Origin: a virus
Virus record (IMG/VR): IMGVR_UViG_3300018428_000136
Span: 1 to 27,324 of that record
Reading direction: 5' to 3' (one strand)
Length of the DNA stretch: 27,324 nucleotides
The notes under the pieces are model-generated. The model ran no database searches. It saw only the letters and a list, made by a program, of their open reading frames with translations, and was not told where the DNA came from. Position numbers and translations under genes: made by a program. Shown here in pieces: positions 7,117 to 20,425 of the stretch. Positions within the stretch are counted from its first letter, which is position 1. Each line of letters starts with the position of its first letter.

Positions 7117-7671
7117 TTACTCCTCCTTTTTTAGAGTTATAACACCACAGGCAAGTCTATCACCTGCGTTTCCTGTTTTTAGACTTTCAGCATCTCCGCC
7201 TTGGCCTAAATCGTCTTGGTCTTTGTGTATTACCACAGCACGACCAACAACAGATCTTTCTCCTAGCAAATCCACTCTTTTCGCAACAATAGTGAAATCG
7301 GCTACACCGTTTGTTCCCGCTACGACATTTCCTAAATCTCCTACGTGACCTTTTTTAAGATCTCCGTGATCAACACCGTCTGGATTATAATGTGCACCAG
7401 CACTGTCGCAACCATCTGATAAATCACCATACTTATGTATATGAAAACCGTGTTCGCCAGGTTCAAGTCCTTGTATTCTACCAACTATTAAAGTAGGCTG
7501 TCCAGCACTTTGTTTAAAAATAATTGTACCTTTGACGCTGTCTGAATGTTCTAAGACGCTGACTGCTGTCACTGTTTCATTTGCTTCAGATAATCTATTG
7601 ATATCTTCGCAATGGCACTTTGTTGATTTAGTGCGTGGACATTCTGAGATATATAATTCATTTAGTCTCAT
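7117..7671 (-). CDS. sodC: Cu/Zn superoxide dismutase with Cys-containing N-terminal extension
   Basis: Converts superoxide to hydrogen peroxide and oxygen. All metal ligands of the Cu/Zn family are present: H77 and H79 (GFHIH), H94 (GAHYNP), H102, H109, D112 (GHVGDLGN) and H149 (VVIHKDQDDLGQGG). The structural disulfide pair is C88/C175 and the active-site arginine is R172 (DRLACGVI). The catalytic domain is full length (about residues 36-182). There is no signal peptide. Instead a 35-residue extension carries C11, C19 and C21 (C-x7-C-H-C), which could bind metal, perhaps as a copper-delivery or anchoring motif; this is inference. Most bacterial SodC proteins are periplasmic, so a leaderless form suggests action in the host cytoplasm or packaging in the virion. 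The gene overlaps uvsE by 14 nt. Confidence 0.95.
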   Translation of the reverse strand: MRLNELYISECPRTKSTKCHCEDINRLSEANETVTAVSVLEHSDSVKGTIIFKQSAGQPTLIVGRIQGLEPGEHGFHIHKYGDLSDGCDSAGAHYNPDGVDHGDLKKGHVGDLGNVVAGTNGVADFTIVAKRVDLLGERSVVGRAVVIHKDQDDLGQGGDAESLKTGNAGDRLACGVITLKKEE

Positions 7672-8686
7672 GATAATATTTATGCAAACTATGACTGGCT
7701 AAATTCTTTGCTTTAGATTCTACCATAATGTCTGCATGGTCCCAAAAGGACAATGCCCAGTCATTCACAGCATTATTCCACATATAATCACTATGAGCAC
7801 GAAGTTTTGCTTTTTTAAAATTCTGTTCAAGTAATGTGTTCATTACAGGTTTTTTATCTACAGGATGATCTATAAGTATATCTTCACGTGAAACAGAATA
7901 ATGTATAACAGGCCTTACACCACGCCAACTGTCTACTATGCGAGAAAATCTATCGTCGGTGGTGCTGATATATTCACCTGTTTTGACCCAGTGATGGTGT
8001 ATGTCAAGTACGAGTGCGACGTCCCTACATAATTCAATACTTGCTTCAATCCCCCACGACATTTCGTCATTTTCAATTGTAATAATGTTTCTCGCTTCTT
8101 GAGATAATCTTGGCAGGACGGCTTGTATACCGGCTGGACCTTTGCGACCTGCGATGTGTACGTTGCATTTAAAATCTTGGAATTGTTTACCGTATCCCAT
8201 CCACCTTGCGACATCAACATGATATTCAAACTCCTCTATACTTCTTTCTACAATATTGGGGTTGTCAGATGCAAGAACAGTAAACTGACCAGGATGAAAA
8301 GAAAGCCTAACATCCAACTTTCTCGCAAGGTCACCGACTGGCCCAAGATGCTTTTCACAATACTCTCTGACATCATTTTTACGCCAAAAGTAACTCCAAG
8401 TAGGCTCAGTATAAACAGGAAGAACATCACTGCCGAGCCTAACCATTCGTAACTCATTATCTAAACCTCCAACATATTCAATTAAATTTTTAAACGATCG
8501 AATATTATGTTCCATAATATCCCATAGTCTTTGTTCTGCGACTTCTTTAGTTTGCCTGTTCAACCAAGCAACTGTTGTGCTACGAGTATTTAGTGGACGT
8601 TGAATTTCTTCTAATAACTTTTTCTTTTGTGATTGATCAGGGTGCATATACTTACAAGCAAACCCTATTCTTTTATGTGAAGTCAT
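7658..8686 (-). CDS. uvsE: UV DNA damage endonuclease (UvsE/UVDE)
   Basis: A 342-residue TIM-barrel endonuclease that nicks DNA 5' of UV photoproducts and other lesions, starting an alternative excision repair pathway. Family motifs are present in order: N-terminal RIGFA, LSFHPGQFTVL (H131), NVHIAG (H177), TIENDE (E205), VLDIHHH (D228, H230, H231), IHYS (H262), RAHSDYMW (H298) and a C-terminal MVESKAKN (E323). These correspond to the metal-binding residues of the family. Length is normal. It overlaps the upstream HAD gene and the downstream sodC by 14 nt each, so translation is probably coupled. A near-consensus promoter lies about 40 nt upstream within the HAD gene. Photoproduct repair makes sense for a virus of sunlit surface water. 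Confidence 0.95.
   Translation of the reverse strand: MTSHKRIGFACKYMHPDQSQKKKLLEEIQRPLNTRSTTVAWLNRQTKEVAEQRLWDIMEHNIRSFKNLIEYVGGLDNELRMVRLGSDVLPVYTEPTWSYFWRKNDVREYCEKHLGPVGDLARKLDVRLSFHPGQFTVLASDNPNIVERSIEEFEYHVDVARWMGYGKQFQDFKCNVHIAGRKGPAGIQAVLPRLSQEARNIITIENDEMSWGIEASIELCRDVALVLDIHHHWVKTGEYISTTDDRFSRIVDSWRGVRPVIHYSVSREDILIDHPVDKKPVMNTLLEQNFKKAKLRAHSDYMWNNAVNDWALSFWDHADIMVESKAKNLASHSLHKYYHETK
7677..7684 (-). promoter_or_regulatory. Possible T4-like late promoter motif before sodC
   Basis: CATAAATA, one mismatch from the T4 late consensus TATAAATA, lies 6 nt before the sodC start but within the last codons of uvsE. A transcript from it would be almost leaderless, so it may be chance in coding sequence. 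Confidence 0.25.
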
Positions 8687-9386
8687 TTTTTAATATTTTC
8701 CAAGTATGTTTATAATCTTTTACATTGTAACATAAACCTAGATCCTTGTCAATCAAAACTCTTTTCAACGGATAGTCATTTCCTGATGGTTGCATAGCAT
8801 CACCAAAAAATTGTATTATATCGTTTTTTGGATCAAAGTCTTTTACAATTTGACTTTTATCACTACCTTTTTGGAAAATATCAATGCCTGTTTCGCCGCC
8901 AACGACTGCTTCTAAGTTTGGAAATTGTATTTTAAATTCTTTTGCAATCCTAATTCTTTCTTTGTCCACACTATCAAATCTAGCATATAACTTTCGTTCA
9001 CCTAGTGTTGCATTACGTCCTACTACACTAAAGTTTACCATGCCTGGACGTTTTTCAATGTGTAAACCTGTGCGTAAAGGAAAACTACTTTGTCTGCATT
9101 TGATATTCAACCAAGTTTCTGCATCATCGGGAATTTGCCAATCGTTAGTGTTTATATTTTTTCCTTTTTCCCAAACATCACTACCAGAACAGTTGTATAC
9201 ACGTTCTACATTTTCACATAGTTTTTTACCTAGTTGTTCTACAGTTTTAGAATAATCACTACCTGTTACAAGGTAAACATAGTTTTCATTTGTAAACTTT
9301 AAAAACCAATCGTGAAATTTAGAATTTATTTTTTGTCTGCTTGGGGTGAGAGTTCCATCTACATCAAATACAAATCTATATACCAT
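8673..9386 (-). CDS. HAD-family phosphomannomutase-like protein (eukaryotic PMM type)
   Basis: A 237-residue protein of the alpha-phosphomannomutase (PMM1/PMM2-type) branch of the HAD superfamily, which interconverts mannose-6-phosphate and mannose-1-phosphate, the precursor of GDP-mannose. Seen: the catalytic FDVDGTLTPSRQ motif (nucleophile D8, acid/base D10), TGSD near residue 41, the substrate-binding RPGMVNFSVVGR motif (113-124), GGETGIDIF (163-171) and a metal-binding FFGDAMQPSGNDYPL (D196, D204). Order and length match human PMM2 closely. Bacteria usually make mannose-1-phosphate with the unrelated ManB family, so this is a eukaryote-type enzyme in a phage. It ends a run of genes for two oxygenases and a glycosyltransferase, suggesting activated-sugar supply. 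Alternative: another HAD sugar phosphatase. Confidence 0.88.
   Translation of the reverse strand: MVYRFVFDVDGTLTPSRQKINSKFHDWFLKFTNENYVYLVTGSDYSKTVEQLGKKLCENVERVYNCSGSDVWEKGKNINTNDWQIPDDAETWLNIKCRQSSFPLRTGLHIEKRPGMVNFSVVGRNATLGERKLYARFDSVDKERIRIAKEFKIQFPNLEAVVGGETGIDIFQKGSDKSQIVKDFDPKNDIIQFFGDAMQPSGNDYPLKRVLIDKDLGLCYNVKDYKHTWKILKNDFT
8724..8752 (-). promoter_or_regulatory. Predicted sigma-70 promoter for uvsE-sodC
   Basis: On the minus strand, TTGACA (8747-8752), a 17-nt spacer ending TATGT (extended -10 TG), then TACAAT (8724-8729). It lies in the 3' part of the phosphomannomutase-like gene, about 38 nt before the uvsE start. The near-perfect hexamers and spacing argue for function, but the site is also coding sequence, so chance is possible. 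Confidence 0.5.
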
Positions 9387-9393
9387 TTAAACA

Positions 9394-9978
9394 TTACTCG
9401 TCGTTTGTGAACCAGCCAGTGATTATGTATTTGTAACCTTCGTATATAGGATTACCTCTGTGTGGATGTTGCCATGTTGCAGGAAAGAAAACAAGTTTAC
9501 CAGCAGTAGGTTTAGTCTTTATACCTTGATATAAAAATTCTGTTTCTCCGCCTTCTTTAACTGTGTTTAAATAAAGCATATATACAGATACTCTGTCTCC
9601 ACTTGCTTTATCATTATTTTCAACGTGCCAAATATGATATGCTTCTTTAGGACCGTTGCGTTGAACACTCATACCTTTAGGAGTGTGTTTCACAACACTA
9701 TCTTTAAGAACACTAAATTCTTTGCAGTACTGTTCATTGTAGTATTTGTTTACAGTTTCATAAAATTTTATACACAGTTCCGGATCATGATAAAACATAT
9801 TGTAGTGAGGTGCCCAATCATAAACTACTCTAGTGTCTTGATTGTATCTAACACTTCCGTCATAATCACTTGTTTGGTTATTTCTATTCATTGTTTCAAA
9901 ACGTTCTATGACATTTTCACAAAAGTCTTTACTAAATGCGTTTGGATATTCTCTGATGTATGATTCTGATATTGCCAT
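9394..9978 (-). CDS. 2-oxoglutarate/Fe(II) oxygenase, prolyl-4-hydroxylase-like
   Basis: A 194-residue protein with the core of the prolyl-4-hydroxylase-like 2OG-Fe(II) oxygenases. Visible motifs: HIWHVE (H118, E120, an H-x-E in place of the usual H-x-D), YLNTVKEGGETEFLY, KPTAGKLVFFPATWQHPH (distal metal ligand H171, or H173) and a C-terminal GYKYIITGWF in which K183 would bind 2-oxoglutarate. Such enzymes hydroxylate proteins, nucleobases or small molecules; the substrate is not readable here. Its start overlaps the stop of the next oxygenase gene by 1 nt (TAATG), so the two are translationally coupled. The acidic metal ligand is Glu rather than Asp, which a few family members tolerate. Confidence 0.9.
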   Translation of the reverse strand: MAISESYIREYPNAFSKDFCENVIERFETMNRNNQTSDYDGSVRYNQDTRVVYDWAPHYNMFYHDPELCIKFYETVNKYYNEQYCKEFSVLKDSVVKHTPKGMSVQRNGPKEAYHIWHVENNDKASGDRVSVYMLYLNTVKEGGETEFLYQGIKTKPTAGKLVFFPATWQHPHRGNPIYEGYKYIITGWFTNDE

Positions 9979-10556
9979 TATAATATATTTAACGTGTTGA
10001 AACTTACCACCATACGATTATCGGTTGTGTTCGTTTTGGATCCATGTTTTAACCAACTTGGAAACAAGTAAAGATAACCTTCGGTAGCAGGCACAGTCAC
10101 GTCCTTCATGTTGTATTCTGATATGTCATTATGTACTTCAGCCATTTTGTACATTTCGATTGGACTTTCAAATGTTAATCCAATACTTCCTTCTGGAACT
10201 TTAGGATAGTATGCTCCACTAATTACACTTGCTTCGTGCCTATGGAATACCAAACTACTTCCTTTATTCATTGTGCTACACCAACTGTTGGTAATTACAG
10301 TTTTAACCAGTGCAGTTTTTTGTGCATAAACATCTACACAATTTTGTAATTCTGTTTTGAGTGCTTTTATAAGTGGCACATCTAGATCTAATAATAACCC
10401 GTCTGTTCTATCATATGTGCTTTTACCAGCACCTTCTAGTAAAGGATGTTCTTTCGCTTCTATATTTTTTAATTCGTTGTATAGTAATTGCGTGTTGATT
10501 TTAGGGTTTAAATCAAACTCCATAACCAATGTTGGAAATAAATTAAATTGTTTCAT
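9978..10556 (-). CDS. Putative 2-oxoglutarate/Fe(II) oxygenase (2OG-FeII_Oxy_5 type)
   Basis: A 192-residue protein of the second oxygenase family common in marine phages. It starts MKQFNLFPTLV, as this family does (short beta strand ending in a phenylalanine-proline motif). NSWCSTMNKGS is followed by FHRHEASVISGAYYP with H105 and H107 as proximal metal ligands, then LFPSWLKHG (distal ligand H171) and NRMVVSFN with R181 as the likely 2-oxoglutarate salt bridge. Substrate unknown. It lies between the glycosyltransferase (5 nt gap) and the other oxygenase (1 nt overlap). Having two different oxygenases in one operon suggests successive oxidation steps or two targets; this is inference. Confidence 0.87.
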   Translation of the reverse strand: MKQFNLFPTLVMEFDLNPKINTQLLYNELKNIEAKEHPLLEGAGKSTYDRTDGLLLDLDVPLIKALKTELQNCVDVYAQKTALVKTVITNSWCSTMNKGSSLVFHRHEASVISGAYYPKVPEGSIGLTFESPIEMYKMAEVHNDISEYNMKDVTVPATEGYLYLFPSWLKHGSKTNTTDNRMVVSFNTLNIL

Positions 10557-10561
10557 ATGTC

Positions 10562-11392
10562 CTACTTCCAGTTATTTAACACCCATGGGTCGGAACACAT
10601 ATCAGGATTGGGATCTCCATGAAATACTGCTATGCAACATTCCTTATGAGGAACAACATCTTCTTTTTTAGTAAATGTTCTTTTGCCTTTTTCTCCAGCA
10701 GTAAGAGTTCTGTCTTTTCTTATTTCCCATTTCCAACTTCTAATCCATTCATCGGGCCAGAGTTTAGCAGTGTTTTGAGCACTGGTCCACAGCCAATCCT
10801 GATCACCGAAGTGTGTTTTTATAATTTGCTCATGATTACTGTTAAAGTCTCTCCAAACTTTATCAAGTTGTCCTTTATTAAATCTTATTACACTGCTATT
10901 GTATTTCTGCCAATTTGGTTGCATGGCACGAGTAAAATCTCTAATTACACACCAATCTCCTTGACTATATTCAAATAGTTTATCTAAACTACCTGCTATA
11001 ACTACGTCAAGGTCCATGTAAAGTATTGTACCAGTTAACGGCAATTCTGCACTGTACATATAAGGTTTACACCACCAACCCGAAAGATGTTGTGGTATAT
11101 CAATAGGAACAATATCAGGATCTAATCCTTTCCTATCGTCTGTCATACAAGCAAATTTAAAAGGCAAAGATAGGTTACGTTTAACCATGTTGTAAAGAAT
11201 ATTTACATAATTGGCAGTGTATTTGTTTCCGTGCTTTAAACATAACACCCATCTATCAGCAGTTTGATCTACAGGAGGAAATTTTTCTCTCACTGTTACC
11301 GCTGGTTGCGTAATGTTTCTATTTGCTTTTTCTTTTGCTTTACGTAATTTACGTTGTGCTTTTGTTTCGCCAGGTATGTAAACCTTTGCCAT
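10562..11392 (-). CDS. GT-A fold glycosyltransferase (GT8-like)
   Basis: A 276-residue protein with a basic N-terminal tail (residues 1-35) and a GT-A nucleotide-sugar transferase core. Seen: the metal/UDP-binding D-x-D motif in LYMDLDVV (D127, D129), the preceding SGWWCKPYMY and PLTGTI segments, a GDQDWLW motif and a C-terminal VFHGDPNP, the His that usually coordinates the metal in GT8-like enzymes. The Shine-Dalgarno (AGGAG) overlaps the queD stop codon, so the genes are coupled. Likely role: transfer of a sugar to a virion protein, modified base or host surface glycan; the acceptor cannot be told from sequence. Context with a phosphomannomutase-like enzyme suggests an operon that both makes and uses an activated sugar. 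Confidence 0.85.
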   Translation of the reverse strand: MAKVYIPGETKAQRKLRKAKEKANRNITQPAVTVREKFPPVDQTADRWVLCLKHGNKYTANYVNILYNMVKRNLSLPFKFACMTDDRKGLDPDIVPIDIPQHLSGWWCKPYMYSAELPLTGTILYMDLDVVIAGSLDKLFEYSQGDWCVIRDFTRAMQPNWQKYNSSVIRFNKGQLDKVWRDFNSNHEQIIKTHFGDQDWLWTSAQNTAKLWPDEWIRSWKWEIRKDRTLTAGEKGKRTFTKKEDVVPHKECCIAVFHGDPNPDMCSDPWVLNNWK

Positions 11393-11403
11393 TAGGTAAA
11401 CTC

Positions 11404-11853
11404 CTATGCTTCATATATTGCACTGTTGGCGCCATGCTCTGCACATTCTACTCGCACAACATAACATCTATTATTAGTTTGTTCTCTAATAAGTTTGTCT
11501 GCAAAATTAAAGGCGTGTTCCGCAAATTTCTCTGCACCAACACCTTCAAATACAACGACATCTGCTAAATCCATATCGTTAAGTTTTAAAAATGTGTCCA
11601 TGTGCGGATCTGCTTTATCAACCACAAGTTTATGATCAAAATGATCTTCAAGCCATTTCTTCAAAGGTTTTAGTCCGCCAAAGTCAACTGCCCAGTTCTT
11701 GTTGTCTAGTTCGTCACAACCGAATGTGAATGTAAATGCTAGACTGTAACCATGTAACAAATGACAGTGTGAATGATCTGCGTTAGGTTGTCTAAATACG
11801 GCACTTAATCCAATGTTGTGGCCATAATGTTTTGTACTATAATGTTTTGCCAT
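11404..11853 (-). CDS. queD: QueD / 6-pyruvoyl-tetrahydropterin synthase family protein
   Basis: A 149-residue member of the T-fold PTPS/QueD family. QueD converts dihydroneopterin triphosphate to 6-carboxytetrahydropterin, the first dedicated step to preQ0, queuosine and 7-deazaguanine DNA bases. Visible: catalytic C30 in HSHCHLLHGY, VDFGGLK, the FDHKLVV pair (D73, H74), a GAEKFAEHAF helix (usual PTSENIA) and VRVECAEHG (E136). Odd: the usual HGH zinc motif is HGY (H34, Y36), and the first ligand position is in a VFRQ context. H27 or H29 could supply a missing ligand, so zinc binding is rearranged. A clear Shine-Dalgarno (AGGAG) and its own promoter precede it. Without QueE/QueC/FolE nearby, the pathway must be completed elsewhere in the phage or by the host. 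Confidence 0.88.
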   Translation of the reverse strand: MAKHYSTKHYGHNIGLSAVFRQPNADHSHCHLLHGYSLAFTFTFGCDELDNKNWAVDFGGLKPLKKWLEDHFDHKLVVDKADPHMDTFLKLNDMDLADVVVFEGVGAEKFAEHAFNFADKLIREQTNNRCYVVRVECAEHGANSAIYEA

Positions 11854-11893
11854 CTTTGCTCCTAGTAATCGTGAAAATGCTATTCATGTATAT

Positions 11894-11922
11894 AATATAA
11901 CATTCTTATTTGTTTTTGTCAA
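11894..11922 (-). promoter_or_regulatory. Predicted sigma-70 promoter for the queD operon
   Basis: TTGACA (11917-11922), a 17-nt spacer, then TATATT (11894-11899) on the minus strand; an overlapping TATTAT gives a 19-nt spacer. It sits at the end of the upstream gene and in the 52-nt gap before queD. It would start the queD, glycosyltransferase, oxygenases and phosphomannomutase transcript. Confidence 0.65.
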
Positions 11923-12523
11923 TCAATTCTTTGAGTCCATCGTAATTATCGATAAAAAAATTATCAAAATTTTCCCATTCTGTAGGCGAATCCCAATCAT
12001 CAGGTTGTATTTGAATAAATTTTATTTTTGGATAATGTTCAAATAGTTTAGCAGTTTGATATATCCAATAACTTGGATCAGTAGCATCTTTCCTCGACTC
12101 ATTATAATGTTCTGTGTCTTTGTATATATTGTTGAATAGTTTATCTTTACTATACAAATCAAAGCCAATCATAACTACAAACTGTGGATCAAACGTACAG
12201 GCTAAATTTAGTGCGTGTCCACCACTGCCCCACTGAAAACTATCATCAGGTCTTTTGTCGCCTTTATATGGTAGATCCGGAACAGTTAAAACATTCTTCC
12301 AATAACTAAAACTTGCTCTCCAATCACTGCGTGTGTATACAGGATTAGAATAGTTATTGTTTACTGCTTCGCTTACCATTCTGCGATCAGCACAAACTAG
12401 ATAGTCGGGTATAAAATCTCTATGCACTGCATTAGTGCCTACAGTCTTACCCAGAAAAGTAAGACTATATAAATCAAAATTCTTACGACTTTCGCCATTA
12501 CCAATAACACTGATATAACTCAT
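11906..12523 (-). CDS. DUF115-like protein, possible glycan-related Rossmann enzyme
   Basis: A 205-residue protein starting with an alternating beta strand and a GNGESR motif (residues 8-13), then VGTNAVHRDFIPDYLVCADRRM, QWGSGGHALNLAC (about 96-108) and FVVMIGFDLYS. This layout (short glycine motif, G-x-N-A, D in a strand end, G-x-x-A-L, G-x-D) resembles the DUF115 group, which includes sialyltransferase-like and pterin pyrophosphokinase (MptE) proteins. Small proteins like it occur in marine T4-like phages with no assigned function. It is followed by queD and a glycosyltransferase. Either a glycan or a pterin link would suit the neighbours, but neither can be shown from the sequence. Confidence 0.75.
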   Translation of the reverse strand: MSYISVIGNGESRKNFDLYSLTFLGKTVGTNAVHRDFIPDYLVCADRRMVSEAVNNNYSNPVYTRSDWRASFSYWKNVLTVPDLPYKGDKRPDDSFQWGSGGHALNLACTFDPQFVVMIGFDLYSKDKLFNNIYKDTEHYNESRKDATDPSYWIYQTAKLFEHYPKIKFIQIQPDDWDSPTEWENFDNFFIDNYDGLKELIDKNK

Positions 12524-12527
12524 GCTA

Positions 12528-12869
12528 TTACTTATTGTCTTTTTTGATGTCTTGAAAAATTTGTCTTATAATTTTAATTTCAGTTAGAACTTCTTGTACA
12601 CCGCTTTCTGCTTTGTGTACTCTATCAGATATATGCCCTATTGTTGCTATTGTCCAGAACCACCAAGTAACTGCTGTTACTACAAATACTCCTAAACCTA
12701 GCCATAGTATAGACTTTACATCCATCATCTGTGTTGAATGCATTATCAATCCAAGTATTACAAAACCTAAGGGTCCTAGTTTAGCGAACATATCCCAAGC
12801 ACGAACTTGCTTTTTAATTCTGTTAGGAATGTTCTTTTTTAGAAATATTATATTTTTAGTCTGTTTCAT
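12528..12869 (-). CDS. Two-helix membrane protein with C-terminal coiled coil
   Basis: A 113-residue protein: a basic N-terminus (residues 1-25), two predicted membrane helices (about 29-44, GPLGFVILGLIMHS, and 53-75, ILWLGLGVFVVTAVTWWFW), then a charged helical tail of about 35 residues with heptad-like spacing. The order and length match small membrane proteins of T4-like marine phages, some annotated as holin-like. It lies 4 nt before the DUF115-like gene. Function unknown; holin or membrane scaffold are possibilities. Confidence 0.8.
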   Translation of the reverse strand: MKQTKNIIFLKKNIPNRIKKQVRAWDMFAKLGPLGFVILGLIMHSTQMMDVKSILWLGLGVFVVTAVTWWFWTIATIGHISDRVHKAESGVQEVLTEIKIIRQIFQDIKKDNK

Positions 12870-12908: not shown

Positions 12909-14015
12909 CTAGTATGGCTTGCCTACAAATCCAAAACTGTTCCATTGTCCTGGATTTCCACCTATAGTGCATACCCAACCAATTGGAGCATCTTCTCTTG
13001 GATTAGTGTTCCACACTGTATCGCCTTTATTCCATTTACCTTTTGTTGGAGGTCTTTCACCAACTGTAAATATGCGATTTTGAAATTTTATATTACCAAC
13101 TGCATCTATTGAATGCTGTGGATTTTTAATGCCTATACCAACCTTACCCCAAATATTGTGTGTAAGATCTTCGTTACCCTGTGAGCCAACAGTTAAACTT
13201 CCCTTATGATCTATTGAAAGTCTATTTTGATCATCTGTAATTAAAGTGAGTGTTTTATTATTATAAGCACCCACTTTAATTTGTCCTTCATCAGAAGTAA
13301 TAATAAAGTTTGTATCGTATTCAAAATTGTATAACCCTATGTCACCTGCAGGTTTATCAGTACCAATACCTATCCTATCAAGATTAGGATCGTAAAAAAT
13401 ATGTTCACCTATTTCTACACGACCAGTAACATTTAGATTTTTTAACTTTCCAACTTTTTGCAGACTACTATTAACAACACTACTGCCTAGAGTATTTTGA
13501 CTTAATACCGATTGCTGACCTATCATAAAGTCTTTGTCTTTATGTAGTTCAATAGGTTCAGTACTATAAAATCTATCAGGTTTATTCAAATATACAAACT
13601 GTCTAGTGTATTGTTTAGGACTAGTCCAAATAAATCCTGTACCAACACTGCTTTGTCTTTTGTTTTTATGACTGAATTCTATATACTGTCTATCTGTTTT
13701 TTCATCAGCAACCAGTTGCTTTGTTATAAGTTCATCTACTTCTAGTTTTCCTACAACAAGTACATCTTGTTTAAATGTAACATTATCAGTAAAATCAATT
13801 TTACCCTGTATAGATTCTGTCTTAATTGCCTTGACGACTATCATGTTATCTATCACAGTTAATGAAACATCTTTTGCTTTGTCTAATATACCTGTACTGC
13901 TGAACTCTTGTATAGGACCACCTTTGACCCACTCGCCAGGGAACTCTCCTTTTTTGATATCTAGTTGAGATACCCTTATATTATCAATTGGCTTGTCAAA
14001 AGTTGCTACTGGCAT
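12909..14015 (-). CDS. Tail-fibre-like virion protein
   Basis: A 368-residue, beta-rich protein. The middle and C-terminal parts carry repeats of the RIGIGTDKPAGDI and GKVGIGIKNPQHSIDAVGNI type, the GIG-x-xxP-xxxLDV-like fibre motif seen in many tail fibre and tailspike proteins. The C-terminus (GDTVWNTNPREDAPIGWVC, GGNPGQWNSFG) is the small tip module found at the ends of phage fibre and lyase-like proteins. No intramolecular chaperone motif is seen. Its ATG overlaps the clpP stop by 1 nt (TAATG). Probably a host-contacting or whisker-type fibre; adhesion role inferred. Confidence 0.85.
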   Translation of the reverse strand: MPVATFDKPIDNIRVSQLDIKKGEFPGEWVKGGPIQEFSSTGILDKAKDVSLTVIDNMIVVKAIKTESIQGKIDFTDNVTFKQDVLVVGKLEVDELITKQLVADEKTDRQYIEFSHKNKRQSSVGTGFIWTSPKQYTRQFVYLNKPDRFYSTEPIELHKDKDFMIGQQSVLSQNTLGSSVVNSSLQKVGKLKNLNVTGRVEIGEHIFYDPNLDRIGIGTDKPAGDIGLYNFEYDTNFIITSDEGQIKVGAYNNKTLTLITDDQNRLSIDHKGSLTVGSQGNEDLTHNIWGKVGIGIKNPQHSIDAVGNIKFQNRIFTVGERPPTKGKWNKGDTVWNTNPREDAPIGWVCTIGGNPGQWNSFGFVGKPY

Positions 14016-14608
14016 TAGTCTCTCTTATTAAGGATCATATCACACAATCCATATTCAATACATTCTTCTGCTGTTAAGAAGTTATCTCGTTCCATATCTT
14101 TAGCAAGTTCATCAAATGTTTTACCTTTTGTATTATGCTCTACATAGATTTGTGTAAGTTCTTTTTTCACTCTAAGTATTTCTTCTGCATGAATACTGAT
14201 ATCTGTTGCTTGGCCTGTGTAGCCGCCACTAGGTTGATGTATCATATGCCTTGCGTGTGGCAACATAAATCTATGTCCTTCAGTTCCTGCTTGAGCAAGT
14301 AATGATCCCATACTAGCGGCATGACCCATTACATAAGTATGAATAGGACATTTGATATATTGCATAGTATCATAGATTGCCATACCAGAAGTTACAATAC
14401 CTCCTGGACTGTTAATATAGAAGTGAATTGGTTTATTTCCGTTTTCACTTTCTAATAAAATTAATTGTGCAGTAATTGAATGTGCTACTCCGTCATGCAC
14501 CATTCCATTTAAAAACACAATTCTATCTTTTAGCAAACGACTAAAAATGTCATATGCTCTTTCACCATTTTGGGTTTTTTCAACCACCATTGGTATTAGT
14601 TCACTCAT
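14015..14608 (-). CDS. clpP: ClpP-type serine protease (complete catalytic triad)
   Basis: A 197-residue ClpP-family peptidase of normal length. The Ser-His-Asp triad is in family contexts: S99 in GHAASMGS, H124 in [10 protein letters not shown] and D171 in the [14 protein letters not shown] region. The oxyanion/strand motif FYINSPGG (residues 63-70) is intact and there is no long propeptide. ClpP forms tetradecameric chambers that need a partner ATPase (ClpX/ClpA), here presumably from the host. The gene overlaps the upstream gene by 4 nt (ATGA) and the fibre gene by 1 nt. Possible roles: virion protein maturation or degradation of host factors. A second, more divergent ClpP-like gene lies at 19725-20285. 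Confidence 0.95.
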
Positions 14609-16466: not shown

Positions 16467-16560
16467 TGGTAGTCCTGGCGGGAGTCGAACCCACATCGCT
16501 CTCTAATCTGGAGACTGTGCCGAGTATAAGCCGGGTGTTTTACCATTAAACTACAGGACC
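16467..16560 (-). tRNA. Atypical tRNA, class II shape, UAU anticodon
   Basis: Folded by eye on the minus strand. The acceptor GGTCCTG pairs with CAGGACT, with a G-U at position 1-72, then A73 and an encoded CCA (16467-16469). The D stem GTTT pairs with AAAC and the T stem/loop GTGGG-TTCGACT-CCCGC is standard. The anticodon loop CTTATAC gives UAU (16526-16528, Ile AUA), but its stem CCCGG/TCGGC has a G-U and one C-C mismatch. Between the anticodon stem and T stem are 24 nt containing a TCTC/GAGA hairpin, i.e. a long variable arm as in Leu, Ser or Tyr tRNAs. No known Ile tRNA has such an arm. The fold is well supported; the identity is not. Leu/Ser/Tyr descent, an altered-identity tRNA or a decayed tRNA are all possible. 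Confidence 0.7.
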
Positions 16561-16567
16561 ACTAACT

Positions 16568-16801
16568 TTAATTTAGAACAGGATCGCTAGGACATTCTTC
16601 TTGATCCGGATGCCAGTGAGTAACGTCACCGGTTAAGAATCCATAATCACAGTAGAATATACTCATTCCTTCCCATTCCTTTCCATCTTCATCAACATAG
16701 AGGCCTCCGTAAAAGCCTCTATGAGTACCTACCATATCAAAGAAGTACCAACAAGGTTCTCCTACTTGGGGTAGTCTTTCATTAACATTAATCCATTTCA
16801 T
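16568..16801 (-). CDS. DUF551-like small protein
   Basis: A 77-residue protein starting MKWINVNERLPQVGEP and ending in VTHWHPDQE. The DUF551 family found in phages starts W-I-S-V-x-x-R-L-P and ends VTHW-x-P, so this is a good match in order, with GFYGGLYVDEDGKEWEG between. A strong Shine-Dalgarno (GAGGAG) precedes the ATG. Seven nt after its stop lies the odd tRNA, so gene and tRNA may be co-transcribed. The molecular function of the family is not established. Confidence 0.8.
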   Translation of the reverse strand: MKWINVNERLPQVGEPCWYFFDMVGTHRGFYGGLYVDEDGKEWEGMSIFYCDYGFLTGDVTHWHPDQEECPSDPVLN

Positions 16802-16837
16802 AATAAACTCCTCTTAATAGATTGTGTTTGTTGTTTA

Positions 16838-17014
16838 CTATGTAATGCCTATTAGACCCCAACCATGGTTTGCTATTGCATTTAAGATAATAGCAAGGCA
16901 AGTAAGAATGTGCAACACCACCCAAAGAGTACGAAGGATTGCCACTCTGTCAGAACGATTGTTATCTTCTTCATATGCTTTACTTCCTATTGTTTTACAC
17001 CATGTTTCCCACAT
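16838..17014 (-). CDS. Small membrane protein, 58 aa
   Basis: The start is set at 17014 (ATG TGG GAA), with GGAAAG about 6 nt upstream; a longer frame to 17059 would run into tRNA-Trp and is rejected. The protein has a polar N-terminus with GSKAYEEDNNRSDRVAILRT and one hydrophobic segment (about 31-50, WVVLHILTCLAIILNAIANH). Small proteins of this pattern recur in T4-like marine phages. Membrane location is likely; function is unknown. Confidence 0.65.
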   Translation of the reverse strand: MWETWCKTIGSKAYEEDNNRSDRVAILRTLWVVLHILTCLAIILNAIANHGWGLIGIT

Positions 17015-17030
17015 ACTGTACTTTCCGAAT

Positions 17031-17104
17031 TGGCAGAGGAGCAAGGAATTGAACCCCATCCTGCTGGGTTGGAACCAGCCGTGCTACCGTAACACTTCTC
17101 CCCC
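17031..17104 (-). tRNA. tRNA-Trp(CCA)
   Basis: A complete cloverleaf: acceptor GGGGGAG with CTCCTCT (two G-U pairs), D stem GTGT/GCAC, anticodon stem GCTGG/CCAGC perfectly paired around TTCCAAC (anticodon CCA at 17070-17072), T loop TTCAATT, discriminator G and encoded 3' CCA. It lies 5 nt after the stop of the glycine-zipper gene and is presumably processed from that transcript. Confidence 0.92.
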
Positions 17105-17109
17105 GTAAC

Positions 17110-17532
17110 TTATTTTTGAAAAGTGACTTTATAGTCCTTTCCATTATAGGCAAATGTAATCGTACTGTGACTATACATTTCTTTGCTAACTTCGTTGTAC
17201 CTTGTTTCAGTACTACACTTACGTTGCAAAGTTTTTTCATCTTGGTTTGCAAATAATCCACCAAGCAGTGCCCCAGCGGCGCCATTGCCTTTACTGTCGC
17301 CTATTTGATTACCAATAATGCCACCTACTATCATACCTTCAACATCAAGACCACCAAGTTTAGGTTTTGTGTCAACTTCAACATGAGTACAAACTTCTAC
17401 ACTGTAAGGTGTACGATCAATAACTGTTTTGTAATGATCAGTTACTGTACCTGTTGTATTCTGGTATGCATAGGCAGTATTGGCAATAAAACATGAGCCA
17501 AGGGCCAATCCAACTACTATAAAATTTTTCAT
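17110..17532 (-). CDS. Exported glycine-zipper protein (17 kDa antigen/2TM-like)
   Basis: A 140-residue protein with a cleavable signal peptide (residues 1-22, ending AYA) and a glycine-zipper membrane domain (about 60-95: GGLDVEGMIVGGIIGNQIGDS and AAGALLGGLF), as in the 17-kDa antigen/YmgG family of outer-membrane-associated proteins. Two cysteines, C48 and C106, flank the zipper and may form a disulfide after export. Shine-Dalgarno AAGGA precedes the ATG. The gene sits between tRNA-Leu and tRNA-Trp and is preceded by a structured leader. A phage that exports such a protein may alter the host envelope, for superinfection exclusion or lysis; this is inference. Confidence 0.88.
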   Translation of the reverse strand: MKNFIVVGLALGSCFIANTAYAYQNTTGTVTDHYKTVIDRTPYSVEVCTHVEVDTKPKLGGLDVEGMIVGGIIGNQIGDSKGNGAAGALLGGLFANQDEKTLQRKCSTETRYNEVSKEMYSHSTITFAYNGKDYKVTFQK

Positions 17533-17556
17533 AACTATATCCTTTCTCTTATAGTA

Positions 17557-17647
17557 GAGCAGTTTAAAGTCATGCTCAGGACTTGCTGAGACCTTTCTCG
17601 AGGGCGCCTCCCAATTTCCCGCCTGAACTTTTATCTAGGGGCCAGGC
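17557..17647 (-). ncRNA. Candidate structured 5' leader RNA
   Basis: The 142-nt stretch between tRNA-Leu and the glycine-zipper gene has no ORF and is unusually GC-rich for this window. On the minus strand it can form a GCCTG/CAGGC stem (17643-17647 with 17621-17625), a GAGG-CGC-CCTC hairpin (17600-17610), and CTCAG/CTGAG (17575-17590) with loop CAAGTC. An alternative GAGCA/TGCTC stem (17557-17577) shares bases with that stem. The AAGTC loop can pair with GACTT (17567-17571) as a pseudoknot. The octamer GAGAAAGG occurs twice, once at the Shine-Dalgarno (17541-17548) and once at 17592-17599. Competing helices suggest a cis-regulatory RNA; I do not recognise a known riboswitch class. Confidence 0.4.
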
Positions 17648-17674
17648 CTAACCACGTTTATACTCGTTCCCTAT

Positions 17675-17760
17675 TGGTGCGAGCAGAGAGACTCGAACTC
17701 TCACGACCAATGGTCAACGGATTTTAAGTCCGTTGCGTCTACCTATTCCGCCATGCTCGC
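17675..17760 (-). tRNA. tRNA-Leu(UAA)
   Basis: Class II tRNA. Acceptor GCGAGCA/TGCTCGC, anticodon stem ACGGA/TCCGT around CTTAAAA (anticodon TAA, reading UUA), a variable arm with GACCATTGGTC, T loop TTCGAGT, A73 and encoded CCA (17675-17677). UUA is a favoured Leu codon in AT-rich phage genes. The promoter at 17806-17834 lies just upstream. Confidence 0.95.
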
Positions 17761-17805
17761 GATAAAACTAATTGTAAGTTCCTTCTCTGCTCTAACTATA
17801 TGTAT

Positions 17806-17834
17806 ACTATACTACCGAATGGTAACGTTGTCAA
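17806..17834 (-). promoter_or_regulatory. Predicted sigma-70 promoter for tRNA-Leu and glycine-zipper gene
   Basis: TTGACA (17829-17834), a 17-nt spacer, then TATAGT (17806-17811). The -35 box overlaps the stop codon of the HExxH gene; the rest is in the intergenic gap. Confidence 0.75.
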
Positions 17835-18535
17835 CTGTTTTCTATATTATTATATACTTTTTTTAATAATTTTTTTATTACAGGATGTTTTGTGTTAAAA
17901 CCCCATACAGCAAGATATCCTAAAAGGTTAGGTGATAACAAATATCCTAGTTCGTCTTTCAGTCCTGCTGTTTGTGTTACTTTGCGTAACAAATCTATTG
18001 CGGTTTGTTTGTCTCTTTTACGCAACAATTCGGCACTGATGTTTTTTGCAAATGCTTCTATTTCATCATCATTACCCAGATATTCTTTTGCACGTTTTAC
18101 ATCAGGTTCTTTGTCTTTAGTTTTGTAATCTCTTTGTCTAACAAAACTCCTCGACCTATATTGTCGCATATGAATCATTTCATGTTCAAGTGCGTCTAAT
18201 ACCCTATCTCTGATATTTGCAATACCGTCTTTTGTAAATTCTAAATTTTTATCTTTAACACTAAAAACAAGATCAATACTGAATGGATCAAATCCATCTT
18301 CATCATCATGCGGATCGTATGCGGCGTTCATGTTCATATCTCCACTATCTACTTCTTTGCTTGTAATAACTTTGACTTCGTCTACGCCAAATTGTTTTAG
18401 TGTTTGTTCAAGTTTTTTTGCTATGTGTTTAGGCTTGAGAGGTTGATCACCACTTCCTAGATACATTAGAAAAGGTTCTAATGCTTTAGCAAGTTCTTCA
18501 CGATCGACGGGTTGTAATATCTCTGCTAACTGCAT
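17831..18535 (-). CDS. HExxH zinc-metalloprotease-like protein
   Basis: A 234-residue protein with a zinc-peptidase signature HEMIH (H118, E119, H122) inside a helix that reads ALEHEMIHMRQYRSR, and a downstream acidic stretch DDEIEAFAKN (E158 or E160) that could be the third zinc ligand. An N-terminal helical region (1-60) precedes it; no signal peptide or membrane segment is seen. Similar small HExxH proteins are found in T4-like marine phages with unknown targets. Structural cleavage in virion assembly, or host protein degradation, are possible. The -35 of the tRNA-Leu promoter overlaps its 3' end. Confidence 0.75.
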   Translation of the reverse strand: MQLAEILQPVDREELAKALEPFLMYLGSGDQPLKPKHIAKKLEQTLKQFGVDEVKVITSKEVDSGDMNMNAAYDPHDDEDGFDPFSIDLVFSVKDKNLEFTKDGIANIRDRVLDALEHEMIHMRQYRSRSFVRQRDYKTKDKEPDVKRAKEYLGNDDEIEAFAKNISAELLRKRDKQTAIDLLRKVTQTAGLKDELGYLLSPNLLGYLAVWGFNTKHPVIKKLLKKVYNNIENS

Positions 18536-18543
18536 GATTGTAT

Positions 18544-18987
18544 TTACTTAGGTTTGCGTGAAGTTTTAGTAGATGAAGGCATACTAAAGGTTTTAGGACC
18601 CTTCATTATTTTCTCAATTTCTTTTTTTTGTTTATAATTGCGTTCGCGAGGATCATAATCTTCTTTGTGTAGCACTGACACAGATTTTTCATATTCAGCA
18701 TAGTGCTTGATATCACTGCCGGGTATTTTTATAGCAGTGTCTTCTTTAGGTGCATATCCAACAGTCATTTCTGTGGCGTGTCTATCACTTAAAGTTTTAA
18801 CTTGAACTTCTTTCTTATCGTGCGAACTCCATTCGTACTCTGGCCTTCTAACAGCAGGAGCAGATGTAATCATAGTTTTTATATTTGTCTTACCACAGTT
18901 TGGACAAGTTTCAGCGGTACCGTCCATGGGTACCAGTTCATCCCACTCAAATTCACAATCTTCACAACCAAATGATCTAAGAGGCAT
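18544..18987 (-). CDS. FmdB-like zinc-ribbon protein
   Basis: A 147-residue protein. The first 35 residues match the FmdB/regulatory zinc-ribbon domain: MPLRSFGCEDC, then CPNCG, giving C8, C11, C28 and C31. The rest is polar and basic with a lysine-rich end. FmdB-type ribbons are small metal-binding modules in putative regulators. Its ATG overlaps the stop of the GNAT gene by 1 nt, so the two are coupled. No DNA-binding domain is recognisable beyond the ribbon. Confidence 0.85.
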   Translation of the reverse strand: MPLRSFGCEDCEFEWDELVPMDGTAETCPNCGKTNIKTMITSAPAVRRPEYEWSSHDKKEVQVKTLSDRHATEMTVGYAPKEDTAIKIPGSDIKHYAEYEKSVSVLHKEDYDPRERNYKQKKEIEKIMKGPKTFSMPSSTKTSRKPK

Positions 18988-19478
18988 TATTTTTCTCCTA
19001 ACTTATACTCAAAATTTTGTGTGGTACTGTTAATGCTAATGACCTTTGCTCCATTACGAATATGAAAGTGTGTTGCCATAGGAGTCAACGGAGATAAAGT
19101 TATCACTCTTTCAATACCATTTTTCTTTGCGTATTCAATTACTTTATTAATTATCTCTTTTCCTGCACCTTTTTTCCTACTCCATACAGTGTATGCAATA
19201 GCAATATTCTTTTGATCTTTAAGGTGTGCAAGTTCACTCATCATGTCTAGTTCTTTGACACTGTGGGGAATATCATTTGTAAATGCTACACAAATAATTC
19301 CCTCAATCTCTTCCTCAAACTTTAAACCAAATATTTTTCTGCCATTGGTTATTCTCCAACCTAATGTAAGTTCTGGTCTAACAGGATCTTCAGAAACATC
19401 TATATCGTCTAGTTCAACTAATTCAGTTCCTTTAACCCAACGAAAAAATTCGTTTATATTGTCTTTAAATTTTTGCAC
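18987..19478 (-). CDS. GNAT-family acetyltransferase-like protein
   Basis: A 163-residue protein with a GNAT-type core: beta strand NIAIAYTVW, the acetyl-CoA pyrophosphate loop RKKGAGKEI (101-109), the following helix INKVIEYAKKNGIERV, and ATHFHIRNGAKVI. The N-terminal 50 residues look like an extra domain. Substrate unknown. Start supported by a GGAG Shine-Dalgarno. It sits 1 nt after the membrane-protein gene and is coupled to the FmdB-like gene. Targets could be a protein or a tRNA/antibiotic-type small molecule. Confidence 0.8.
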   Translation of the reverse strand: MQKFKDNINEFFRWVKGTELVELDDIDVSEDPVRPELTLGWRITNGRKIFGLKFEEEIEGIICVAFTNDIPHSVKELDMMSELAHLKDQKNIAIAYTVWSRKKGAGKEIINKVIEYAKKNGIERVITLSPLTPMATHFHIRNGAKVISINSTTQNFEYKLGEK

Positions 19479-19479
19479 A

Positions 19480-19725
19480 TTAACTCCACATTTGATCTAT
19501 TTTTCGTTTGTAACTCCAATAAAGGATATAGTCAACAAAAATAGTATTTAAGAAAAATCCCATAACAGTAAAAACAAATCCGAAAAGATATGGCAGTAAA
19601 AACAAAATAAAAAACATTTTTAAAATGTAATCAATTGCAAAATACTCCGGTACAGAATAAGTTAACCACGGACCAAGATCTGGTTTAGGTGGCTTCGGCC
19701 GGTAATCTTCATATTCATGATACAT
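19480..19725 (-). CDS. Small membrane protein, 81 aa
   Basis: An 81-residue protein: a Pro/Tyr-rich N-terminus (YEDYRPKPPKPDLG), then two close hydrophobic segments (about 33-60 and 60-70, MFFILFLLPYLFGFVFTVMGF), and a basic C-terminus. Its ATG overlaps the stop of the ClpP-like gene by 1 nt. Probably an inner-membrane protein. No family recognised. Confidence 0.78.
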   Translation of the reverse strand: MYHEYEDYRPKPPKPDLGPWLTYSVPEYFAIDYILKMFFILFLLPYLFGFVFTVMGFFLNTIFVDYILYWSYKRKIDQMWS

Positions 19726-20285
19726 TATAAAATCTCGTCTGCTAGTTTTAAATCAATTAATTGTTTTGCCGTAAAATATTGATCGCTTTTATCATTAAAT
19801 TTTTTACGTACATCGGTCAAACTCATTCCACAGGCTTCTCTAATTATATTAAAACTTCTTAGTTCACAGTTTGCATTTTCTTTCATAGCACTTCTCATGT
19901 CGTGCATCTTTGATTCCATAGCGTCTGAATGTTGATGGTTCATTATACCTGTGTTTTTTCCTATGTATCTGTAACCCTGTTTTCCACTTATAAAAATTAA
20001 AAAGGCGGCACTCATTACCGCTCCAACTCCAACAGTGCTTATTGTGTGATAACTTTCTTTCATTATATCAATCAAAGCAAATGCTTGGTATAAATCACCA
20101 CCTGTGCTGTTAATATATAATTCTAAAGTACGTTTTGGTTTCTTGGTTAAATTAGCACTAACAATCCATTTAATAGCATTACCAATATTTTCTTCTGATA
20201 TATCTCCAGTCAAATAATGTATATCGTTTTCCAAAAGCGAAACGTCTATTCTGTCATCTGCTGTAAAATTTTCAAATCTTTTCAT
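19725..20285 (-). CDS. ClpP-like serine protease, second paralogue
   Basis: A 186-residue ClpP/crotonase-fold peptidase. The triad can be placed as S92 (GVGAVMSAAF), H117 (IMNHQHSD) and D165 (FNDKSDQYFTA), matching ClpP spacing. LYINSTGG (57-63) replaces the usual YINSPGG. It differs strongly from the other ClpP here (14015-14608) and lacks the normal proline after the catalytic His, so it may have a separate origin or substrate. Mixed ClpP1/ClpP2 chambers are known in other organisms. A promoter with both sigma-70 and late motifs lies directly upstream and AAGGA is the Shine-Dalgarno. Confidence 0.88.
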   Translation of the reverse strand: MKRFENFTADDRIDVSLLENDIHYLTGDISEENIGNAIKWIVSANLTKKPKRTLELYINSTGGDLYQAFALIDIMKESYHTISTVGVGAVMSAAFLIFISGKQGYRYIGKNTGIMNHQHSDAMESKMHDMRSAMKENANCELRSFNIIREACGMSLTDVRKKFNDKSDQYFTAKQLIDLKLADEIL

Positions 20286-20296
20286 ATGTCCTTACA

Positions 20297-20325
20297 ATAA
20301 TATACGTATATTTATACAATGTCAA
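20297..20325 (-). promoter_or_regulatory. Composite promoter: sigma-70 hexamers plus T4-like late motif
   Basis: TTGACA (20320-20325), a 17-nt spacer and TATTAT (20297-20302) form a consensus promoter. Inside the spacer, TATAAATA (20309-20316) is an exact match to the T4 late promoter. The site is in the 63-nt non-coding gap upstream of the ClpP-like gene, so one site could serve both early and late transcription. Confidence 0.65.
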
Positions 20326-20348
20326 ATATACAGATGCTCGTTGTGTTT

Positions 20349-20425
20349 TGGCCCGCTCGGCAGGACTCGAACCTGCAACCTACGGCTTAGAAGGCCGTTG
20401 CTCTATCCAGTTGTGCTACGAGCGG
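20349..20425 (-). tRNA. tRNA-Arg(UCU)
   Basis: Acceptor CCGCTCG/CGAGCGG, D arm GCAC/GAGC with one A-A mismatch, anticodon stem ACGGC/GCCGT around CTTCTAA (anticodon TCT, reading AGA), T arm GCAGG-TTCGAGT-CCTGC, discriminator G, encoded CCA (20349-20351). AGA is the usual Arg codon of AT-rich phage genes. Confidence 0.93.

Follow-up and report, generated by a model that had tools for sequence, protein, structure and literature searches.

The 27,324-base window analysed here, an IMG/VR virus record taken at its full length, looks by sequence like the tail region of a marine T4-like phage; judged gene by gene, its nearest named phages are the Pelagibacter phages Mosig and HTVC008M and the Kyanoviridae cyanophages. 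On its minus strand lie six enzyme genes in a row, encoding a DUF115/GT42-like protein (DUF115), a QueD-like protein, a GT8/GT6-like glycosyltransferase (GT), two 2-oxoglutarate (2OG)-Fe(II) oxygenases (OxyB and OxyA) and a phosphomannomutase (PMM). A first-pass annotation read them as a candidate for a single modification pathway leading to either a modified base or a virion glycan. We propose, with moderate confidence, that they form a cargo island in the tail module with two unrelated functions, a glycan cassette and a QueD that acts in trans. Both of the chemistries originally suggested find support, but as two separate things; the single pathway does not, as relatives have QueD apart from the glycan genes (ten contigs) or DUF115 apart from QueD (record G012).

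All six open reading frames (ORFs) are intact, and their coordinates and order were reproduced. In transcription order, 52 nucleotides (nt) separate DUF115 from QueD, 11 QueD from GT, 5 GT from OxyB and 7 OxyA from PMM, while OxyB and OxyA overlap by 1 nt; this gap table bears out the earlier description of six one-direction enzyme genes with gaps of 7 nt or less except at queD. The proposed operon span, 8673-12523, encloses the six genes but does not end at 8673, since PMM/UvdE and UvdE/SodC overlap by 14 nt each and the transcriptional run continues through both. The ratio of nonsynonymous to synonymous substitution rates against relatives, where computable, is 0.07-0.34; the six genes are under purifying selection and are therefore not chance ORFs.

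Relatives were gathered by four viral-contig scans and by tblastn with the window proteins. We counted 90 distinct IMG/VR contigs in which the stretch could be read from the tail-fibre-like gene, or the gene just upstream of it, to UvdE, and in these the island is flanked by the same tail genes. Contigs were picked via QueD, GT, DUF115 or PMM, so that the frequencies are not population estimates; most records are fragments. QueD occurs in all 90 (in part a consequence of how the contigs were found), DUF115 and GT in 80 each, PMM in 32, SodC in 23, OxyB in 18 and OxyA in 10. DUF115 and GT share the same 80 contigs and are both missing from the other 10, and PMM, OxyA and OxyB were found only where this pair is present. 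The minimum number of changes on the UvdE tree is 2 for the pair, 6 for PMM, 9 for KdsA (an insert described below), 8 for OxyB, 5 for OxyA and 6 for SodC. Counts and tree together identify the pair as the stable part of the island and the rest as optional cargo. The independent scattering that the first-pass annotation had named as grounds for abandoning its proposal is thus seen for PMM, OxyA and OxyB, with 5 to 8 changes, but not for DUF115 and GT, which keep together across the 90 contigs. Coupling among PMM, KdsA, the oxygenases and SodC was also considered and dropped, the independent changes being too few. Other inserts within or just after the island encode cupins, an Asp/Arg hydroxylase, another 2OG oxygenase and an FkbM methyltransferase.

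QueD and DUF115/GT are separable in both directions: G013 and nine further contigs have QueD-UvdE at the tail site, without DUF115 or GT, and G012 (307 kb, matching G011 in the QueD/QueE region) has fib2-DUF115-UvdE there, without QueD. The likely partners of QueD lie elsewhere. Relatives that share the island (G010) or have QueD (G011-G013, G036) carry FolE and QueE. G010 (156.6 kb; island order DUF115-OxyB-QueD-GT-PMM-UvdE-SodC) encodes FolE (PF01227, 1.8e-38), QueE (phrog_2076, 4.8e-51) and a phosphoribosyltransferase (PF00156, 3.8e-10) about 55 kb from the island, and in the relatives these three genes lie in the replication module. Of 36 records, 5 have QueE, and the same 5 have the phosphoribosyltransferase, each time with FolE; in a sixth, G005, FolE lies near the contig end. 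QueD is 5 nt from QueE in G011 and inside the QueE/FolE cluster in G036, and these copies are 83-84% identical to the window's QueD. The latter (11404-11853, minus strand; 6-carboxytetrahydropterin synthase-like) exceeds the Pfam cut-off for the 6-pyruvoyltetrahydropterin synthase (PTPS) family (PF01242, 1.4e-14; 54.5 versus 22.4 bits) and matches phrog_2389 (1.7e-40); phmmer against the PDB gave no match. It is probably a 7-deazaguanine enzyme displaced from its pathway.

The search recommended earlier for folE, queC, queE and dpdA was thus productive for FolE and QueE, found in relatives, far from the operon and together with a phosphoribosyltransferase, and came back empty for QueC and DpdA within limited tests. 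For QueC, PF06508, a model run without a phage positive control, gave nothing beyond partial matches, in 4 of 36 records, and there was no tblastn match to the QueC of phage Iggy in the pieces searched. A DpdA1 model that detects phages 9g and Iggy and misses nt-1 found nothing in ten records of this group or in Synechococcus phage BUCT-ZZ01; PF01702 was discarded as a DpdA test because it missed DpdA in 9g, Iggy and nt-1 alike. A 350-residue protein beside FolE was tried as a hidden DpdA and rejected: it did not match Iggy DpdA in hhalign, and by sequence it looks like a GT-B glycosyltransferase. This GT-B-like enzyme is strongly conserved in the replication module (L227, 12581-13627, and 80 loci, L247-L326): among 42 contigs carrying it with enough flank, FolE is nearby in 41, the phosphoribosyltransferase in 41 and QueE in 37, and it was not found in G036. 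It is possibly a DNA-base glycosyltransferase. A base made without QueC or DpdA can be imagined, in which FolE, QueD and QueE would yield 7-carboxy-7-deazaguanine, the phosphoribosyltransferase would convert this to a nucleotide ahead of replication and the GT-B-like enzyme would add a sugar; we consider this scheme distinctly unlikely. Later work is reported to find a transglycosylase in every phage that has 7-deazaguanine in its DNA, an argument against a route that lacks this enzyme.

The other half of the island centres on the two glycosyltransferases. The DUF115 protein (11906-12523, minus strand) has no Pfam match of its own, and the label it received in the first-pass annotation is upheld by its homologues and its fold. 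Its structural model (predicted local distance difference test score, pLDDT, 96.4) gave nothing under E 0.001 with Foldseek; a second look with VIA-align returned Maf (Z 13.3, 170 residues) and CstII (Z 11.1, 172 residues), with Z 10-11 over 170-187 residues for CstII/CstI and a lower Z of 9.4 over 133 residues for MptE. A profile search of the PDB matched GT42 chains only, at a weak E of 0.03, and homologues reach both MptE-like and CST-I Pfam models (PF01973 in 5 of 60, at E up to 0.1, best 3.5e-5). The model shares its fold with GT42 and Maf enzymes, and the protein is a probable CMP-sugar (cytidine monophosphate-sugar) glycosyltransferase. Its partner GT (10562-11392, minus strand) is weakly GT8 by sequence (Pfam E 5.1e-3; a score of 16.9 bits, under the cut-off of 24.3) and clearly GT8/GT6-like by model (pLDDT 93.1), with Foldseek matches to GlyE, LgtC and glycogenin at E down to 4.8e-8. 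The DLD motif (D126-L-D128, the DxD motif of GT8) and GDQD are invariant and the modelled fold is GT-A; the enzyme is read as a retaining glycosyltransferase.

The nature of the sugar is suggested by what relatives insert beside this pair. Of the 80 pair-bearing contigs, 21 have KdsA inserted between QueD and GT, and in 6 of these a KdsB-like gene also directly precedes GT. KdsA scores of 384.5 and 320.9 bits exceed the equivalog cut-off of TIGR01362 (314 bits); the KdsB candidates score 106.3 and 104.6 bits, under that of TIGR00466 (155.2 bits), and are called KdsB-like because their best models and all their PDB matches are KdsB. KdsB makes the CMP-activated form of 3-deoxy-D-manno-octulosonate (Kdo), CMP-Kdo is a product of Gram-negative hosts, and the donors of GT42 enzymes are CMP-sugars; most simply, then, DUF115 would take a CMP-Kdo-type donor, and such a sugar, rather than mannose alone, is probably the donor of the cassette. 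The glycan reading of the first-pass annotation emerges strengthened, with its mannose supply shifted to a CMP-Kdo-type donor by the KdsA and KdsB genes of relatives and the DUF115 fold.

Three optional enzymes would complete the cassette. OxyB (9978-10556, minus strand) is a 2OG-Fe(II) oxygenase of the TIGR02466/phrog_81 type (PF13759, 6.6e-18; TIGR02466 over cut-off), and OxyA (9394-9978, minus strand) one of the phrog_61 type (PF13640, 2.2e-13; phrog_61, 6.1e-40), with HxE and the distal His conserved. PMM (8673-9386, minus strand) is of the PMM1/2 type within the HAD enzymes (PF03332, 1.6e-26, 94 bits versus a cut-off of 22.4); it matches PDB phosphomannomutases at 6.5e-27, and alignment to PDB 2i54 shows FDVDGTLTP, including the HAD motif DVDGT, to be kept. 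This gene is only 82% identical to its counterpart in the L088/L002 contig, where the genes on either side match the window at 99-100% identity, suggesting allele replacement of PMM alone. GDP-mannose synthesis by the phage, for which a check had been advised, was rejected: no GDP-mannose pyrophosphorylase (NTP_transferase, PF00483) was found in any of 27 phage records.

Gene content, pairing, separations, folds and KdsA/KdsB insertions were established computationally; the sugar, the acceptor, the oxygenase substrate and the final base are inferred. DUF115 and GT would act together as two glycosyltransferases, the former most likely using a CMP-activated Kdo-type sugar from the host or, in some relatives, from phage KdsA and KdsB; PMM would supply hexose-1-phosphate, and the oxygenases may oxidise the glycan or its acceptor. 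A short glycan would result, probably on a tail or virion protein and less likely on the host surface, in keeping with the position of the island between tail-fibre-like genes. QueD, in trans with the FolE, QueE and phosphoribosyltransferase of the replication module, would contribute to 7-deazaguanine for DNA (or tRNA).

Several observations weigh against this two-function reading. The donor sugar is deduced from relatives and not from the window phage, whose own contigs show neither KdsA nor KdsB, and KdsA occurs in 0 of 18 contigs of the window's OxyB-bearing type versus 21 of 62 others, a count that ignores descent. Nor were FolE and QueE found in G001 and G002, the contigs of the window phage itself, both of them fragments. 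With only 2 changes of the pair on the tree, much of the 80/10 split is attributable to common descent, and G012 carries DUF115 with no GT found. The window QueD also scores under the NCBIfam TIGR03367 cut-off (38.6 versus 89.25 bits). The signature motif of PTPS-I in COG0720 is CxxxHGH (PMC5041015), and the window protein reads CHLLHGY, that is, CxxxHGY. Owing to these two departures we call it QueD-like; the QueD of phage Iggy, encoded in a QueE-QueC-QueD-FolE-DpdA operon and 50% identical to it, has the same variant motif (CSLLHGY), and the window protein probably works like QueD.

Among the alternatives, an unlikely but still credible one is that the cassette acts during infection on the host surface (lipopolysaccharide core or outer polysaccharide), for example to block superinfection, and not on the virion. 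Host KdsA and KdsB make Kdo for lipopolysaccharide, and cyanophage S-SCSM2R has KdsA, KdsB, a glycosyltransferase and 2OG oxygenases near pstS, psbA and psbD. One survey lists kdsA and kdsB among the commonest lipopolysaccharide genes of surface and subsurface viruses (PMC10653327). A position between tail-fibre-like genes, however, suggests late expression alongside virion proteins, and the other island inserts include no recognised lipid A or polysaccharide export genes.

We think it improbable that all the enzymes serve one route to a glycosylated 7-deazaguanine, in which QueD with FolE and QueE would supply a base for modification by the oxygenases, and DUF115 and GT would attach sugars to it in DNA. 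Glycosylated bases are known in phage T4, every one of the 80 pair-bearing contigs has QueD between DUF115 and GT, and FolE and QueE occur in the same phages; yet the two-way separation described above, the Kdo-type sugar indicated by KdsA and KdsB, the different, GT-B-like enzyme adjoining FolE, and the location of the island in the tail rather than the replication module all speak against such a single route. A pterin or folate pathway, with DUF115 as an MptE-like 6-hydroxymethylpterin diphosphokinase beside a QueD-like PTPS, could draw on the match to MptE (the Methanocaldococcus jannaschii enzyme), the PF01973 matches among homologues and the adjoining PTPS-family gene, but it deserves little credence, as Maf and CstII align with a larger part of the model at higher Z, the PDB profile search gives GT42 chains only, and DUF115 accompanies a glycosyltransferase and is missing from contigs that have QueD by itself.

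None of the papers searched reports this gene combination, and the closest known systems each resemble a part of it. The 7-deazaguanine DNA modification of phages 9g and Iggy (FolE, QueD, QueE, QueC, DpdA) likewise has FolE, a QueD-like protein and QueE in the same phage; here, by contrast, QueD sits away from the others in the tail module, FolE and QueE have a conserved phosphoribosyltransferase as neighbour, and no QueC or DpdA1 was found in limited tests. BUCT-ZZ01 encodes the same four enzymes, and DpdA1 was not found in its complete genome (with the model that misses nt-1), but QueE, phosphoribosyltransferase, QueD and FolE form one operon, in that order, and its QueD is 55% identical to the window's. 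Maf flagellin glycosyltransferases and the GT42 sialyltransferases CstI and CstII are the top structural matches over most of the DUF115 model and share a GNG.S motif with it, whereas the DUF115 protein has only about 200 residues, weak sequence similarity to them (E 0.03) and relatives that point to Kdo, not sialic or pseudaminic acid. S-SCSM2R combines KdsA and KdsB with glycosyltransferase and 2OG oxygenase genes, at another genome site (between pstS and psbA/psbD), and the stretch compared carries no QueD or UvdE annotation.

If the two-function reading holds, aquatic T4-like phages of a widespread group that includes jumbo-sized members carry a compact two-transferase cassette, which may decorate tail proteins or the host surface with a Kdo-type sugar, together with a 7-deazaguanine pathway split across two genome sites and having an unusual partner set. 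Adjacency within a phage cargo site need not imply a shared pathway. Both the glycan and the base readings are testable, and BUCT-ZZ01 is a cultured isolate with the same four base-pathway enzymes.

UvdE, SodC and the two genes upstream of DUF115 are also on the minus strand. UvdE, a UV endonuclease (7658-8686; PF03851, 2.6e-40), belongs to the same run with a separate predicted function, and SodC, a Cu/Zn superoxide dismutase (7117-7671; PF00080, 6e-45), is optional cargo; downstream of it come a HesB-like ORF, so named by sequence inspection, and a long ORF running off the window. A small protein (12528-12869), without Pfam or PHROG match, lies 4 nt 5' of DUF115, and a tail-fibre-like structural protein (12909-14015; weak tail fibre and virion structural PHROG matches) forms the upstream island border, which is kept in relatives. 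Two tail-region ORFs (14015-14608 and 19725-20285) match ClpP-like head maturation protease families (phrog_94, 4.4e-52 and 5.9e-20), and four tRNA genes (Ile-TAT, Trp-CCA, Leu-TAA and Arg-TCT) lie among small ORFs within 16467-20425.

Records of 307 and 356 kb belong to this phage group. DUF115 gave four matches in bacterial genomes, and the two that were read (L235 and L236) hold the same phage locus. That locus occurs in L235 (PBPT01000016.1, 335 kb), L236 and L237, contigs filed under Neomarinimicrobiota and Rickettsiales metagenome-assembled genomes that are probably mis-binned phage. A small CTP_transf_like cytidylyltransferase gene is found inside the island in L004 (9592-10008) and elsewhere in most long records (G010, G012, G013, G020, G027, G036). 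Finally, 4 to 11 radical SAM genes cluster in single phage records, including an 82.6-kb record nearly identical to the window: L136 (14.8-23.7 kb), L060 (20-34 kb), L080 (50-71 kb), L083 (1.6-17 kb), L068 (218-267 kb) and L063 (12-49 kb). In the record of L080 they are interspersed with many ORFs of no identified function.

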